Assembly: GCA_007125585.1 (NCBI GenBank)
Contig: SLCY01000021.1
Span: 1 to 54,141 of the forward strand
Reading direction: 5' to 3'
From: Bacteroidales bacterium
Lineage (GTDB): Bacteria > Bacteroidota > Bacteroidia > Bacteroidales > UBA7960
DNA length: 54,141 nt
The notes under the pieces were generated by a model, which worked only from the letters and a program-made list of their open reading frames with translations, searched no databases and was not told where the DNA came from. The translations under genes were made by a program, and so were the position numbers. Shown here piece after piece: positions 2,572-12,785 of this stretch (the first letter of the stretch is position 1; each line of letters begins with the position of its first letter).

Positions 2572-2961
2572 ATGGAACTCAGCGGCAGTATTCTTTCTGT
2601 ACTACCCGAGCAAAGCGGCGAAGGACGTAATGGCCCATGGCGGAAGCAGGAAGTTATCATTGAAACGGAAGGCCAGTACCCCCGAAAGGTATGCATCGCC
2701 ATTTGGGGCGACAAAATAGATCAGTTTTCCCTTGAAGAGGGGGAGCGGATCACTGCCTCGGTGAATATAGAAAGCCGTGAGTTCAATGGTCGCTGGTATA
2801 CCGATGTGAAGGCCTGGAAGGTGGACAGGGAGACGCAGTCCGGTGCCCGTCCCGGCGAGGCTCCACCTCCTGCAATGGACCCCCTCCCCCCTTCGCAAGC
2901 ACCTTTCCCTGACAATGAAGAGTTACCACCCCTTGAAGAGGAGGATGACCTGCCTTTTTAA
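2572..2961 (+). CDS. DUF3127 protein with SSB-like C-terminal tail
   Basis: A 129-residue protein whose first 85 residues match the Bacteroidota family DUF3127: MELSGSILSVLPEQSGEG at the start, a WRKQEVIIET strand, and a FNGRWYTDVKAWKV strand, a pattern compatible with a small OB-like beta barrel. From about residue 90 the chain becomes Pro-rich and acidic and ends in EEEDDLPF. That ending is the same kind of acidic DD-hydrophobic-P-F tip used by single-stranded DNA-binding protein to recruit repair and replication partners. The family is formally of unknown function; a role at single-stranded DNA is inferred from fold pattern and tail together. It has its own promoter-like sequence upstream, and the next gene starts 128 bases downstream on the same strand. 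Confidence 0.85.
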   Translation: MELSGSILSVLPEQSGEGRNGPWRKQEVIIETEGQYPRKVCIAIWGDKIDQFSLEEGERITASVNIESREFNGRWYTDVKAWKVDRETQSGARPGEAPPPAMDPLPPSQAPFPDNEELPPLEEEDDLPF

Positions 2962-3089
2962 CTGCGTCGGTCTTTCATGAATGACACTGTTTTTTTTCCT
3001 CCTGGTTCGCAGCAAATAGTTGGTCAGCAGGTGTGGAACCCGGCCAGCTGCCGAAAAATATCCGTAACTTCGCAATAAAACCTGCTGTG

Positions 3090-4502
3090 ATGGATAATGA
3101 TTCTTTTCGACGCCATGGCCATGAGTTTGTCGACTGGCTGGCTGATTATTTTGAAAATATTGAACGTTATCCCGTAAAGTCGGGAGCAGAACCGGGGGAG
3201 GTGCTTTCCCGGCTGCCATCGTCTCCTCCGACAGGGGGTGAGTCAATGGATGCTATTTTTAAGGATTTCCGGCAGGTGATCCTGCCCGGGATAACCCACT
3301 GGCAGCATCCAGGCTGGTTTGCCTATTTCCCGGCAAACAACAGTCCGTCTTCTGTGCTTGCCGAGATGCTGACTGCCGGACTCGGATGTCAGTGTATGAG
3401 TTGGCAGACCTCACCCGCTGCGACGGAACTGGAGGAACGTGTCATGGACTGGCTGAGGCAGATGATCGGCCTGCCTGAGGGGTTCACGGGTGTTATTCAG
3501 GATACGGCTTCAACAGCCACCCTTTGTGCATTGCTGTCGGCAAGGGAGTTTGCCACTGACTTTACTGCCAACGAAAGAGGCATCCATGCACCACTGATGG
3601 TGTACGCATCCACAGAGGCCCATTCAAGCATAGAGAAAGGGGTAAAGATAGCTGGTTTTGGGCGGGAGAACCTTCGTCTGATAGAAGCGAGGGATGATCT
3701 TTCGATGTGCCCTCAGTCACTGGAAGATGCCATTGGGCAAGATATTGGGGAGGGCAAAATACCGGCTTGTGCGGTGGCCACACTAGGCACCACCTCATCC
3801 ATGGCCATGGACCCGGTAGATGACATTTCAGCCATTTGTGAAAAGTATGGATTATGGCTCCATGTGGATGCAGCTTTTGCCGGCACTGCCGCGGTTGATC
3901 CACAACACCGGTGGTTCATGAAGGGAACCGGGAAGAGCGACTCTTTTGTGTTCAATCCCCACAAATGGATGCTTACAAACTTTGACTGTTCGGCTTATTT
4001 TGTTCGTGATCCCGGCATCCTGTTGCGGACCCTCAGCATGCAGCCCGAATATCTGAAAACAGCCGCTGATGAACAGGTTAAGAATTATCGCGACTGGGGC
4101 ATTCAACTGGGCAGGAGATTTCGTGCACTCAAACTTTGGTTTGTCATCCGATCCTATGGTATCAGGGGCATCAGCGAAATGGTGAACAAACACATAGGAC
4201 TCGCCCGGCACTTTGCACAATATGTGGCTGATGATGATGGCTTTGAGTTGCTTGCACCCCAGAGGCTGAGCCTTGTATGTTTCAGGTACAACCCTGGCAA
4301 GCTTGACGAAGAGGATCTGTTGCGCCTGAATCAAACCCTCATGGAGAAAGTGAATGCATCGGGTGAACTGTTTCTTACCCATACCGTACTGAAGGAAAAA
4401 TATTGCCTGCGGCTATCGGTGGGACAGCGGTCCACCGCTATGAAACACATTAAAAAAGCCTGGATCCTGATCAAAGATGCCAGCAATAGATTGATGGCAT
4501 GA
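3090..4502 (+). CDS. PLP-dependent group II decarboxylase, aromatic amino-acid type
   Basis: A 470-residue pyridoxal-phosphate enzyme of the aromatic-L-amino-acid decarboxylase family, which converts an aromatic amino acid to its amine and CO2. Visible signatures: HPGWFAYFPANNSPSSVLAE near the substrate channel, the HVDAAFAGTA segment with the PLP-contacting Asp, and NPHKWMLTNFDCSA with the lysine that forms the Schiff base. These sequences resemble the animal/plant AADC branch more than glutamate decarboxylase. The track ORF begins at 3033, but the ATG at 3090 (MDNDSFRRHGHEFVDWL) matches the family N-terminus. Substrate (Phe, Tyr, Trp or DOPA) cannot be read from the sequence. A semialdehyde-type dehydrogenase lies about 2.2 kb downstream, separated by other genes. 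Confidence 0.88.
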   Translation: MDNDSFRRHGHEFVDWLADYFENIERYPVKSGAEPGEVLSRLPSSPPTGGESMDAIFKDFRQVILPGITHWQHPGWFAYFPANNSPSSVLAEMLTAGLGCQCMSWQTSPAATELEERVMDWLRQMIGLPEGFTGVIQDTASTATLCALLSAREFATDFTANERGIHAPLMVYASTEAHSSIEKGVKIAGFGRENLRLIEARDDLSMCPQSLEDAIGQDIGEGKIPACAVATLGTTSSMAMDPVDDISAICEKYGLWLHVDAAFAGTAAVDPQHRWFMKGTGKSDSFVFNPHKWMLTNFDCSAYFVRDPGILLRTLSMQPEYLKTAADEQVKNYRDWGIQLGRRFRALKLWFVIRSYGIRGISEMVNKHIGLARHFAQYVADDDGFELLAPQRLSLVCFRYNPGKLDEEDLLRLNQTLMEKVNASGELFLTHTVLKEKYCLRLSVGQRSTAMKHIKKAWILIKDASNRLMA

Positions 4503-4874: not shown

Positions 4875-5486
4875 TCAGACAGTAAATCCCCGGACGCCAA
4901 AAGGCACCTTGTCGTTTTTTGTAATTATCAGCGACTTATCTGTCTCCCACATATATTCTATTTCACCACTGACATTCACATGTGACATTTTTTCAAGTTC
5001 CGCTTTGGTGATGCGCTGGTTTTTCCTGAAAAAAGTTGCCCTAAACTCACTGGCGTAAAAGGTTTCAAGAGCGACGAAACGGTTATTAACCAGCCGCCAA
5101 CGTCCACGCCGGTCAATTCTGCGCAGTTCGTTAAGTTTGGGTTGCAGTATCAGCTGATGCATGTCGAGTGAGGCCCCGATCATTTCGCGAATTTCAATAT
5201 GCACCCTGAGGTCATGAGAAAATCCGCCACCTATGGAAAAAACGCCCAGCACATTCACGCGACTGCTCAATTTCCTGTCCATCGCTATGGTACCATAGAT
5301 CATGTTTGCCTCTGACCTGGTATAGGTCCAGGATGATTCTGGTTCATCAGGAAGCAGATCGCGGCAATGACCCAATAGCCGCATCTTTTCAGGATCCAGG
5401 ATAACCCCGGGTAAATATTGCTCCATGCTGGCAGGCAACACACGAAGACCAGGAATGTGTTTTCGAATGAATCTTTGAAATAACAT
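4875..5486 (-). CDS. Unknown protein, gasdermin-like pore-forming candidate
   Basis: A 203-residue protein with no signal peptide, no classical transmembrane helix and no recognised enzyme motif. Several positions resemble the bacterial gasdermin N-terminal domain: an amphipathic start followed by GLRVLPASMEQYLPGVIL and LLGHCRDLL, a NMIYGTIAMD strand leading into VNVLGVFSIGGGF, an alternating strand FVALETFYASEFRATFF, and a closing strand KVPFGVRGFTV at residues 193-203. Bacterial gasdermins usually continue for about 20 or more residues past that strand into an autoinhibitory tail; this protein stops there. It stands alone, convergent with the decarboxylase gene and divergent from mscS, with no caspase-like or subtilisin-like protease beside it. 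A canonical -7 box lies 30 bases upstream. The match is remembered family pattern, not a computed alignment, so a domain of unknown function remains a real alternative. That the ORF is a gene is much surer. Confidence 0.45.
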   Translation of the reverse strand: MLFQRFIRKHIPGLRVLPASMEQYLPGVILDPEKMRLLGHCRDLLPDEPESSWTYTRSEANMIYGTIAMDRKLSSRVNVLGVFSIGGGFSHDLRVHIEIREMIGASLDMHQLILQPKLNELRRIDRRGRWRLVNNRFVALETFYASEFRATFFRKNQRITKAELEKMSHVNVSGEIEYMWETDKSLIITKNDKVPFGVRGFTV

Positions 5487-5515: not shown

Positions 5516-5523
5516 CAAAATTA
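5516..5523 (-). promoter_or_regulatory. Candidate -7 box for the gasdermin-like gene
   Basis: CAAAATTA on the plus strand is TAATTTTG on the minus strand, a full TAnnTTTG match 30 bases upstream of the ATG at 5486. The surrounding 5487-5640 region is clearly more AT-rich than the flanking genes. Confidence 0.5.
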
Positions 5524-5739: not shown

Positions 5740-5823
5740 TAACACACAGAAACCCTTAAACCTTTAAACCCTTCAACCTTTAAACCTATTTGGCATTTCG
5801 CCCTTTTGACAAATGATAAACAG
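5740..5823 (-). repeat. Dispersed repeat family B, copy 3 (partial)
   Basis: It contains the run aacccttaaacctttaaaccc, then caacctttaaacctatttgg, catttcgcccttttgacaaa and tgataaac, which is the inverse of 36890-36960 with few changes. It runs right up to the mscS start and explains why the track ORF extends upstream to a TTG at 5806. The rest of the gap 5487-5739 is AT-rich and holds only the promoter candidate of the minus-strand gene. Confidence 0.75.
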
Positions 5824-6741
5824 ATGAACCATTTTAAACGCTTTGTCCTACCCATCCTCATTTTTCTCATTGCCCTGTTGATGAAGACCCTTGGCAGGCA
5901 CCTGGACTTTGTGCCGGAAGAGTTGCACAACCTTATTCACATCGCTGGATCCATCTTGCTCGTAATCGGTGTCACCTGGTCCATTATTGCAGTGATCCGC
6001 ACGGCAAAGGTCAGGCTTCTTGCAAGTTATGATATGGCTGTGGAGGATAATCTGCGGATTCGTAAATTGCACACACAGTATAACATCCTGGAAAAGATCC
6101 TGGTTTTTGTGATTATTCTGATTGCCCTTGGCATTACGCTGATGCAGTTCGATGGGGTGCGCAACATCGGCATCTCCCTTTTTGCTTCGGCCGGCATCGC
6201 CGGCCTTGTTATCGGTCTGGCGGCACAGAAAGCCCTGGGGACCATTCTTGCAGGCATTCAAATAGCCATTACCCAGCCCATCAGGCTCGATGATGTGGTG
6301 ATCGTAGAGAATGAATGGGGCTGGATAGAGGAGATCAACCTGACCTACGTCGTGATCCGAATATGGGACAAGCGGCGCCTGGTGGTTCCGACCACTTATT
6401 TTATGGAAAGGCCTTTCCAGAACTGGACCAGGACATCAGCCGACATTCTGGGCACTGTTTTCATTTACACCGATTATACCATTCCCCTGAAAGCCCTCCG
6501 CCAAGAGCTCACACGGCTGCTCGAATCAAGTCCTTACTGGGACAAAAAGGTTAACGTGTTGCAGGTTACTGATGCCAGGGAACACACCCTGGAGGTTAGG
6601 GCGCTCATGAGTGCCGCCAGCTCCCCTGACGCCTGGGAACTCAGGGTGTATGTACGGGAAAAACTGGTGGAATTCCTGCAGCGCGAATATCCGCAGTGCC
6701 TGCCCAGAACCAGGGTCATCCTTGACAAAAACACCTCATGA
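5824..6741 (+). CDS. MscS-family mechanosensitive ion channel
   Basis: A 305-residue inner-membrane channel that opens under membrane tension and lets solutes out during osmotic downshock. The N-terminal half has three hydrophobic segments (about residues 5-25, 35-60 and 90-115). These are followed by the pore-lining helix region with the small-residue pattern ASAGIAGLVIGLAAQKALG, and then the conserved beta-domain entry with ITQPIRLDDVV. The C-terminal beta domain carries WGWIEEINLTYVVIRIWD and the family-typical VPTTYFMERPFQNWTR. The start was set at the ATG at 5824; the upstream TTG lies inside repeat family B. The stop is 3 bases before the dehydrogenase start, so these two are probably one transcript. 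Compatible solutes such as trehalose, made by the next operon, are the kind of osmolyte such channels release. Confidence 0.92.
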   Translation: MNHFKRFVLPILIFLIALLMKTLGRHLDFVPEELHNLIHIAGSILLVIGVTWSIIAVIRTAKVRLLASYDMAVEDNLRIRKLHTQYNILEKILVFVIILIALGITLMQFDGVRNIGISLFASAGIAGLVIGLAAQKALGTILAGIQIAITQPIRLDDVVIVENEWGWIEEINLTYVVIRIWDKRRLVVPTTYFMERPFQNWTRTSADILGTVFIYTDYTIPLKALRQELTRLLESSPYWDKKVNVLQVTDAREHTLEVRALMSAASSPDAWELRVYVREKLVEFLQREYPQCLPRTRVILDKNTS

Positions 6742-10367: not shown

Positions 10368-12785
10368 TTATTTATCGCTGCTAACTCGCTTTTTTAATGA
10401 AAACTCTTTATGATCATCGGTCTCAAAATAATATTTACGGCCATTCACCCCCACATGTACAGGTTCGGCCCATCCCCTGTCGAAATGTACTTTTAGCTTC
10501 TGATGATCAATGTCCAGTTTGATCCAGTGGCTGCGGTAGCGCACATGGAAGGAGAGGGATTTGATATCATCGGGCAAGTGTGGTTTCAGCCACAATGCAT
10601 CATCCCGTATCTCCAGACCGGAATAGCAGCGTTGTAAAATATCCAGTGACCCTGCCATTGCGCCCAGGTGTATCCCTTCATGGGTGGTGCCCCCCTGGAT
10701 GTCTTTAAAGTCGCTCATCAGGGCTTTACGGAAACTTTTCCATGAGCGTTCACGATGGCTGCGGGCATAAACCCATGCGTGAATTACCTGGCTTAATGTA
10801 GAACCGTGGGATGTTCTCTGGTAATAATAATCAATGTTTTTTAAAATGATCTCCTCGTTGAATGGATAGCCCAGATTATCGAAAAGCCTTTTCAGTTCTT
10901 CGTAAGAAAAAAGATAGAACAGCATCAACACATCCGCCTGCTTGCTCGCTTTATAGTAGTTCGGAGAATCATTCTCACTTTCCAGAATACGGTCAAGGCG
11001 CATCGCTTCGCCATATTTTCCAGTATAGTGATCCCAGTTCAGTTCTTTCAACTTCTCGTATCCTTCAAATTGTGAAATGATATCTCCTTCATGGTAGGGT
11101 ACGAACATTTTATGGGTGATATCTCTCCAACGGGCAATGTCTTTTTCATTGATTCCCATTTGTTTGCTCATCTGAACACTGCAGGCGTCATCCAGCAAGT
11201 CAATGAGTTTCAGTGCCCTTTCAATGACCCAGACTGCCATCACATTGGTGTAAGCATTGTTGTTGAGGCCCGGTTTTTCAATGCCAGGGTAGTGGGTATG
11301 GTATTCATCCGGCCCCATGATCCCGTTGATCTCATAACGATTGCGCATGGGATTGAACTGTGCAATATCTGACCAGAACAATGCCGTGGCTAAAATCATC
11401 TCCGCACCATACGCATTGAGGAAGTCCATATCGCCGGTACTTTGATAGTAGTGCCATACGTTGAATGGTATTGCCGCGTTGATATGGTATTGCAGATGGG
11501 TTACGTCAGGCAGCCATCTGCCCGATTTAGGGTTCAGATGTATCTTTTGTGTCTCTTCCCGGCCGTTGCTGCCACTTTGCCAGGGATACAAAGCCCCCCT
11601 GTAACCGCTTTCTTTCGCTGCCGCGTATGCCTCAGGAAGGCGGCGATACCTGTACATGAGCAGGGAACGTGACAGTTGAGGATAGTGCAGGTCGATGAAA
11701 GGCTGGATATACAGCTCATCCCAGAAAATATGCCCGCGATAGCCCTCACCATGCCATCCGCGGGCAGGAATGCCAATGTCGTAATCAATGCTGTTTTTCG
11801 ACACGGTCTGGTACAGATGAAAAATATGCAGACGGATCACCAGCTGGTCTTCATTGTTGGAATCCGCCAGCATGTCATTATGGTTCCACAGACATTCCCA
11901 CGCCATTCTCTGATGTTGCACCATATCGGCAAATGGGCCAATGCGCTTCATTTTGTTTTGCGCCTCCGTAAGAGGGTCGCTGATGGCAACATCCCGCGAT
12001 GTATATAACGAAACAAGCTTTTCCACCCTGATGGGTTCCAGCTTCTTGCACTCCAGCATGTAATCCCCTGCAACAGCATCCTTCAGGTGCACCAGTTTCT
12101 GATTTAACTCCAGCTTTTCGTGGTGTATATAAAATGATGTTTTCGCAGCCTGTGTTACCCGTATTTTTGACTGCTTTGTGCGGCTGGATAAATAAATGGT
12201 GTTGTCGTTCAGGCTGCCTTTACTGCTTACTTCCAGATGGTGCTGATTGAGATCTCTATAACGTTTCACATTGTTATTGATAAGGTTGCCGTCAATTCCC
12301 GAGCGGATGGTCAGCGGTCCGGACCAGTTTTCGGGAATAAAAGTCCACTCCAACCCGGCCACATGGTAGTCGGCCATGCTTACCAAACGCCGGCTGATGA
12401 TGGTGGTAATACGGCCTTCCTGATCGCTGAAGCGCATTTTCCTTTCCAAAATACCCTCTTTCATATTCAACGATGTAATAAACCCAAGCACCTTCATATC
12501 TTTTATGCTGAACCAGGGATTGTTGCCTATCCTGAACGTCAGCAGCAGCCAGTTGGGCCAGTTGACCAAATCCTCATTCTCTATCACCTTTCCGCTGATC
12601 TCTGACTTCATCCGGTTATACCCGCCTGCCAGGTAGGTTCCCGGATAATTGTGTTCGTTGTCTTTTTCCATTTCCAGCGCACCCCGGGTGACAAAATATC
12701 CATTGCCAAGCGCACACAAAGCTTCCTGCAATGGATGATCTTTTGGGTTCCACTGATCGTATTCAATAATCCATTTTTCGTCCAT
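10368..12785 (-). CDS. GH65 family glycoside phosphorylase/hydrolase (trehalose or related)
   Basis: An 805-residue cytoplasmic protein with the full GH65 layout: an N-terminal beta-sandwich (about 1-270), a linker, an (alpha/alpha)6 catalytic barrel (about 320-720) and a small C-terminal beta domain. Seen motifs are WHGEGYRGHIFWDELY, the general-acid region GIMGPDEYHTHYPG with Glu494, KQADVLMLFYLFS, and the TSHGSTLSQVIHAW segment near the phosphate site in phosphorylases. Family members phosphorolyse alpha-linked disaccharides (trehalose, maltose, kojibiose, nigerose) to beta-glucose-1-phosphate and glucose. The genomic partners favour trehalose or trehalose-6-phosphate as substrate. It sits 54 bases after the HAD-phosphatase gene and 45 before the synthase gene. 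Specificity is inferred from context only. Confidence 0.88.
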   Translation of the reverse strand: MDEKWIIEYDQWNPKDHPLQEALCALGNGYFVTRGALEMEKDNEHNYPGTYLAGGYNRMKSEISGKVIENEDLVNWPNWLLLTFRIGNNPWFSIKDMKVLGFITSLNMKEGILERKMRFSDQEGRITTIISRRLVSMADYHVAGLEWTFIPENWSGPLTIRSGIDGNLINNNVKRYRDLNQHHLEVSSKGSLNDNTIYLSSRTKQSKIRVTQAAKTSFYIHHEKLELNQKLVHLKDAVAGDYMLECKKLEPIRVEKLVSLYTSRDVAISDPLTEAQNKMKRIGPFADMVQHQRMAWECLWNHNDMLADSNNEDQLVIRLHIFHLYQTVSKNSIDYDIGIPARGWHGEGYRGHIFWDELYIQPFIDLHYPQLSRSLLMYRYRRLPEAYAAAKESGYRGALYPWQSGSNGREETQKIHLNPKSGRWLPDVTHLQYHINAAIPFNVWHYYQSTGDMDFLNAYGAEMILATALFWSDIAQFNPMRNRYEINGIMGPDEYHTHYPGIEKPGLNNNAYTNVMAVWVIERALKLIDLLDDACSVQMSKQMGINEKDIARWRDITHKMFVPYHEGDIISQFEGYEKLKELNWDHYTGKYGEAMRLDRILESENDSPNYYKASKQADVLMLFYLFSYEELKRLFDNLGYPFNEEIILKNIDYYYQRTSHGSTLSQVIHAWVYARSHRERSWKSFRKALMSDFKDIQGGTTHEGIHLGAMAGSLDILQRCYSGLEIRDDALWLKPHLPDDIKSLSFHVRYRSHWIKLDIDHQKLKVHFDRGWAEPVHVGVNGRKYYFETDDHKEFSLKKRVSSDK

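Follow-up and report, generated by a model that had tools for sequence, protein, structure and literature searches.

A tail-less gasdermin-like protein encoded at a conserved chromosomal site in a Bacteroidales family

Gasdermins perforate membranes when animal cells die, and the bacterial members (bGSDMs) are regarded as suicide proteins that a protease activates. The inhibitory peptide of bGSDMs is about 20 residues long and is removed by the protease (PMC9612521). Growth is arrested when the Runella, Bradyrhizobium or Vitiosangium protein is deprived of its tail (PMC10989679), and the same study asked how widespread the tail mechanism is in bacteria. The window analysed here, a contig of 54,141 nucleotides (C87) from a Bacteroidales genome of 2.57 Mb that is 97% complete, bears on this question. 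It encodes a 203-residue protein which the original prediction had described as a gasdermin-like domain ending at its last strand. Is this a genuine gasdermin, is the tail really missing, and how could such a protein be controlled?

A single-copy gene at one chromosomal site

The open reading frame starts at an ATG and stops at a TGA codon. The gene, its promoter box and the neighbours that could be assigned with Pfam are the following.

4875..5486, minus strand, stop codon included: coding sequence of the 203-residue tail-less gasdermin-like protein (orthologues, profile, dN/dS, model)
5516..5523, minus strand: -7 promoter box of the Bacteroidota type, TAATTTTG, at -37 from the ATG
2572..2961, plus strand: DUF3127 protein, a neighbour in most relatives, here separated from the gene by the decarboxylase gene
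3033..4502, plus strand: PLP-dependent decarboxylase, part of the conserved context
5806..6741, plus strand: mechanosensitive channel of the MscS type, oriented divergently to the gasdermin gene and next to it in some relatives

Of 59 related genomes searched, 14 (its own among them) contained the gene, always at full length and without internal stops. The orthologue alignment has 15 rows, two of which (L001 and L005) are the same contig, leaving 14 distinct sequences. All of these, the window's own included, belong to one Bacteroidales family, have exactly 203 codons and align without gaps over 203 columns. Identity to the window protein ranges from 54 to 63%, and 39 columns are invariant; the last nine residues (PFGVRGFxV) contribute eight of them. 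The three closest pairs gave dN/dS ratios of 0.08-0.11 (NG86, with dS near saturation), and pairs from a second family gave about 0.05-0.12, again with dS near saturation. At a dN/dS of about 0.1, the frame is a real gene under strong purifying selection and not a chance open reading frame; constant length and dN/dS also rule out a truncated pseudogene.

Each genome with the gene gave a single match. In the relatives with enough flanking sequence the gene occupies one site, near holA, CvpA and the PLP decarboxylase gene and beside DUF3127, the other flank being formed either by MscS and aldehyde dehydrogenase genes or by large secreted-hydrolase-like genes. The remaining neighbours in the window, named by eye, we take to be holA, CvpA, aldehyde dehydrogenase and OtsA/B-like genes. 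Flanking sequence sufficed at 11 loci: in eight of them the gene lies about 70-110 bp upstream of DUF3127 in the same direction, and in two it is divergent from DUF3127. The DUF3127-decarboxylase pair is rearranged locally in the window, so that the gene looks more isolated there than usual. Its earlier description as an orphan has to be qualified, given the pairing with DUF3127 in 8 of 11 loci. The chain of the DUF3127 protein, the most constant neighbour, closes with EEEDDLPF, which resembles the acidic tip at the C-terminus of single-stranded-DNA-binding proteins (SSB).

The gene is found in three of the eight genera of the family, a patchy distribution, and no orthologue is present in a 93%-complete congener (G011). 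The site is clean in that genome: the same neighbourhood is kept (L077, 9204-9401), with DUF3127 directly beside the hydrolase-like gene. Together, the patchy distribution and the clean site indicate that the gene is not essential. The same congener carries a different tail-less relative of 227 residues elsewhere (L043, 364-1047). The gene is therefore single-copy and vertically inherited at one chromosomal site. This is the same housekeeping site in the relatives and not a defence island, whereas bGSDMs have been reported in defence islands (PMC10989679).

The original prediction had also placed the gene in an AT-rich setting with its own -7 box, and both features were recovered. The 90 bp preceding the ATG have a GC content of 18%, the gene itself one of 46%. 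The motif TAnnTTTG occurs within 90 bp of the start in 16 of 21 homologues, against 1.3 expected from mononucleotide shuffles, and most of these boxes lie at -37 to -33, so that the position seen in the window is conserved among relatives. Judged from this motif, the gene has its own conserved promoter.

Assignment to the gasdermin superfamily

Taken alone, the window protein matched the PADLOC bGSDM profile weakly (E 0.0015). The profile was nevertheless matched by 13 of the 15 orthologue rows, at best with 7.9e-8, and was the sole reproducible profile match. The profile of the family retrieved two 204-residue relatives that belong to another Bacteroidales family and that matched the bGSDM profile at 2.1e-10 and 2.3e-7; residues 5-200 of these distant relatives align to model positions 5-211 of 257, which is nearly the whole pore-forming domain. 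Profile-profile comparison (hhalign) with bGSDM-like proteins of other Bacteroidota gave a probability of 92.5% (E 4.9e-7), the end of the tail-less chain falling at position 213 of 233.

Structures were reached by sequence only when distant relatives were included. With phmmer, the window protein retrieved the bGSDM structures 9v2s (E 0.24) and 7n52 (E 0.30), both sub-threshold, and a profile of the close orthologues alone found no gasdermin in the PDB; the wide alignment, with distant relatives added, placed a bGSDM first (E 0.003-0.004). The top phmmer match, Ten1 (3kf8, E 0.066), was without structural support, and we regard it as a coincidence. For the window protein no significant match, whether to gasdermins or to another family, came from Pfam or NCBIfam, and the relatives scanned against Pfam or PHROGs gave none either.

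A first AlphaFold model based on 15 close sequences was poor (pLDDT 58). Addition of diverse relatives, giving an alignment of 25 sequences, raised this value to 84 (AlphaFold2; pLDDT 83.8, pTM 0.78). When the improved model was compared by Foldseek with 350,542 PDB chains, the top 13 matches were all gasdermins, from Vitiosangium, Runella, Bradyrhizobium, GSDME, Trichoplax and RCD-1 (E 3.3e-6 to 0.03). The first eight had a probability of 1.00, with Vitiosangium 7n51 at E 3.3e-6 and a TM-score of 0.60. The top 10 matches of the poor first model were likewise only gasdermins, and viral structures gave nothing meaningful. The following elements could be placed on the model.

5457..5480, minus strand: N-terminal helix, residues 3-10, without the cysteine found here in most bGSDMs
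5166..5294, minus strand: predicted first extendable hairpin, residues 65-107 (strands 65-70, 77-79, 83-87 and 93-107)
4944..5078, minus strand: predicted membrane-inserting region, residues 137-181 (strand 137-154, helix 161-167, strands 168-172 and 178-181)
4878..4904, minus strand: almost invariant terminal strand PFGVRGFTV, residues 195-203 (last element of the model, strand 195-202)

The model contains the twisted antiparallel sheet with two hairpins, the first of which is its lowest-confidence part (mean pLDDT 52-78). The second hairpin region keeps a beta-alpha-beta order, and residues 137-181 match the preformed beta-alpha-beta motif reported for the membrane-inserting region of bGSDMs (PMC12547243). 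An amphipathic beta pattern was significant for residues 168-181 only (P 0.003) and marginal for 93-104, and counts as weak evidence. By profile and predicted fold, the protein has a pore-forming domain homologous to those of the Vitiosangium (7n51/9a84), Runella (7n52) and Bradyrhizobium (7n50) bGSDMs, with the same order of strands and helices, the beta-alpha-beta element included. On these profile and model data we hold the gasdermin homology and fold of the 203-residue protein to be nearly certain. The proposal of a gasdermin N-terminal-like domain whose chain stops at the last strand was thus borne out by the PADLOC profile, by hhalign and by the AlphaFold2 and Foldseek results, in which RCD-1 was among the matches; neither a confident alternative fold nor, in Pfam and NCBIfam, an unrelated family emerged. 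The short peptides that the prediction had cited as gasdermin-like were an impression gained by eye.

The missing tail

The length of the missing part was estimated by alignment to known bGSDMs. In the Vitiosangium protein 7n51 (266 residues), residue 200 of a distant relative falls at position 216 of the phmmer alignment, which places the chain end near 220; the 8sl0 chain (237 residues) is identical in the part aligned. In the Runella bGSDM (268 residues), residue 199 of the window protein aligns at 223. Known bGSDMs therefore extend about 40-46 residues further, the 203-residue chain ending about 46 residues earlier than the Vitiosangium protein and 41 earlier than that of Runella. As aligned, the family is without the inhibitory peptide, the cleavage site and the stretch that precedes the peptide. 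All 14 orthologues share the C-terminus PFGVRGFxV-COOH, in which one residue varies, and since the tail is missing throughout the family, the short chain is not a truncation. The predicted absence of an autoinhibitory tail was thus confirmed in every orthologue.

More distant tail-less proteins end 0 to 7 residues past the homologous point. They comprise seven 204-residue proteins from one family, one protein of 209 and one of 211 residues from two further families, a 227-residue protein in a congener, and a 228-residue protein on a phage contig. The tail-less form is thus present in no fewer than 14 genomes of related bacteria, in three further bacterial families and on one phage contig. Proteins with the same core but a longer chain were found in other Bacteroidota with the bGSDM profile or the wide family alignment: two have 233 residues (L046, L047) and continue for 20 residues past the tail-less stop point, and a third has 232 (L059) and continues for about 11. 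No recognised protease was found by Pfam among the few neighbours checked of L046 (7462-8163) and L047 (7161-7862).

The other hallmarks of the protease-activated systems were also missing. Most bGSDMs are palmitoylated at an N-terminal cysteine (PMC9612521, PMC12547243), whereas no orthologue has a cysteine before residue 28, so that the N-terminal lipidation cysteine is absent. Cys41 is present in 11 of the 15 rows, and no cysteine is invariant. A basic pI of 9-10 was calculated, and the window protein has no hydrophobic helix, the maximum Kyte-Doolittle value over 19 residues being 0.9. No protease gene was found in the conserved neighbourhood, nor, as had been noted earlier, among the neighbours in the window. 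A genome-wide protease search, which covered the C14 (PF00656) and CHAT (PF12770) families, gave no match in the 97%-complete genome; proteases of other types would in any case find no tail to remove. By profiles and model, the protein belongs to the gasdermin superfamily but stands outside the canonical protease-activated bGSDM systems, from which it differs by the absence of inhibitory peptide, cleavage site, N-terminal cysteine, protease gene and defence-island setting. These observations suggest that gasdermin searches which demand a nearby protease miss members. We found no description of tail-less bacterial gasdermins in the open-access literature searched.

Control without a tail and possible roles

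In the absence of the tail, any pore activity must be controlled in another way. We favour the reading that the protein is a minimal gasdermin pore-forming domain working without proteolytic activation, to which we give a probability of about 0.5. It would be made as a soluble, basic and latent monomer. Following a stress or infection signal it would bind the anionic inner membrane, where its two hairpins would extend and oligomers would form a pore, so that the cell would be depolarised or lysed. Latency would come from an intrinsic barrier to oligomerisation instead of a tail, and the trigger lifting this barrier could be a partner protein, a change in lipid or voltage, or raised expression.

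Precedents for a barrier combined with a trigger are given by the eukaryotic gasdermins RCD-1 and TrichoGSDM, which act independently of cleavage. RCD-1 proteins lack an inhibitory part and depend on an incompatible partner (PMC12547243, PMC11760362). Like the 203-residue protein, RCD-1-1 and RCD-1-2 of Neurospora crassa consist of the gasdermin N-terminal domain only (Foldseek E 0.026), although they are longer (257 and 244 residues). In RCD-1 two antagonistic alleles must meet, whereas one copy per genome under purifying selection implies that, here, two host copies do not as a rule pair in the same cell; an encounter with a foreign copy, carried by a phage, may occur. TrichoGSDM of Trichoplax adhaerens (8jyv/8jyw; Foldseek E 8e-4 to the model) is reported to be activated without cleavage and to be released by disulfide reduction (PMC12547243). 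Intermolecular disulfides hold it inactive; a conserved lock of this kind was rejected here, since none of the cysteines is common to all orthologues. With one copy per genome and no invariant cysteine, neither lock is directly transferable. What remains as control, on this analysis, would be an intrinsic barrier plus trigger, or expression from the conserved promoter.

Some points argue against this reading. Besides the low confidence of the first hairpin in the model and the failure of the close-orthologue profile to find gasdermins in the PDB, the chain is about 17 residues short of the end of the 8sl0 Vitiosangium construct and may lack elements for assembly. Vertical, syntenic inheritance under purifying selection is also unusual for a suicide effector. 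Somewhat less probable than the favoured reading itself is that the family forms a vertically inherited, cleavage-free bGSDM branch with a role other than protease-triggered abortive infection, for example in the physiology of the envelope or in lysis, the latter in common with phages.

The main alternative, which we hold to be possible but less likely, is that the gasdermin fold has been exapted for a non-lethal, constitutive role in the envelope of normal cells. The protein could then bind anionic lipids, remodel or repair membranes, or form a small regulated pore for osmotic relief. A fixed housekeeping site, single copy, exact length and dN/dS of about 0.1 favour such a function. So do the basic pI of 9-10 and the losses in the protein, which include the lipidation cysteine, the tail with its cleavage site, and some 17-25 residues at the end of the activated domain. 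In a subset of relatives the genes for an MscS channel and trehalose-synthesis-like genes also lie nearby. However, the patchy distribution (3 of 8 genera, and absence from the 93%-complete congener) fits this role poorly, and the tail-less relatives found in a phage and beside an endolysin-family gene fit lysis better.

These relatives raise a further possibility, namely that the protein derives from a phage lysis or conflict protein forming holin-like pores, the chromosomal branch being a domesticated copy that serves either phages or the defence against them. The 228-residue relative is encoded on a phage contig of 91.7 kb that also has genes for terminase, portal and major head proteins (L048, IMGVR_UViG_3300005077_000010, 11633-12319, minus strand), where the 3' end of its gene overlaps the start of a 151-residue reading frame with an N-terminal hydrophobic stretch. 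In another genome (G847; L057, 8411-10658, plus strand) a gene for a putative membrane protein begins 2 bp after the gene for the 209-residue relative, and an endolysin-family gene comes next (phrog_17001, E 7.6e-87). Such an arrangement recalls the holin-endolysin-like layouts that a review noted in bGSDM operons (PMC9612521). We nevertheless consider a phage origin improbable. A single contig among the 2.9 million of IMG/VR carried a relative, 50,697 annotated phage records gave no match, and no phrog_17001 endolysin was found on the phage contig; plasmid record collections gave no match either. No phage genes were found around the chromosomal branch, and the endolysin family seen in G847 is also present in bacterial genomes where no gasdermin lies alongside. 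Phage holins, moreover, have transmembrane helices and lie beside an endolysin gene, whereas the window protein has no hydrophobic helix and its context no lysis gene, the holin-like layout being limited to the relative in G847.

The short form without elements of the activated domain, and its carriage by phages, would also suit an antagonist, a pore-incompetent gasdermin that poisons the assembly of another gasdermin, of phage or host, through mixed oligomers. In the same genomes, however, no second gasdermin was found, and the bGSDM profile matched nothing else in the genome of the window, which makes an antagonist very improbable.

If the family is a vertically inherited, cleavage-free branch with a role of its own, it would parallel, in bacteria, the eukaryotic gasdermins that act without cleavage, and the bare domain without a tail would be suggested as a stable, selectable state. 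A tail-less family kept for long at one chromosomal place has either another lock or no lethal effect. Its small single-domain proteins could be used for testing how prevalent the tail mechanism is.

The surroundings of two distant members contain further genes. A CHAT-domain gene lies on the other strand about 4-5 kb from the 209-residue member in G847. The 211-residue member (G890; L055, 1486-2685, minus strand) is located about 85 bp downstream of the gene for a 159-residue protein, which has hydrophobic stretches and no family match.
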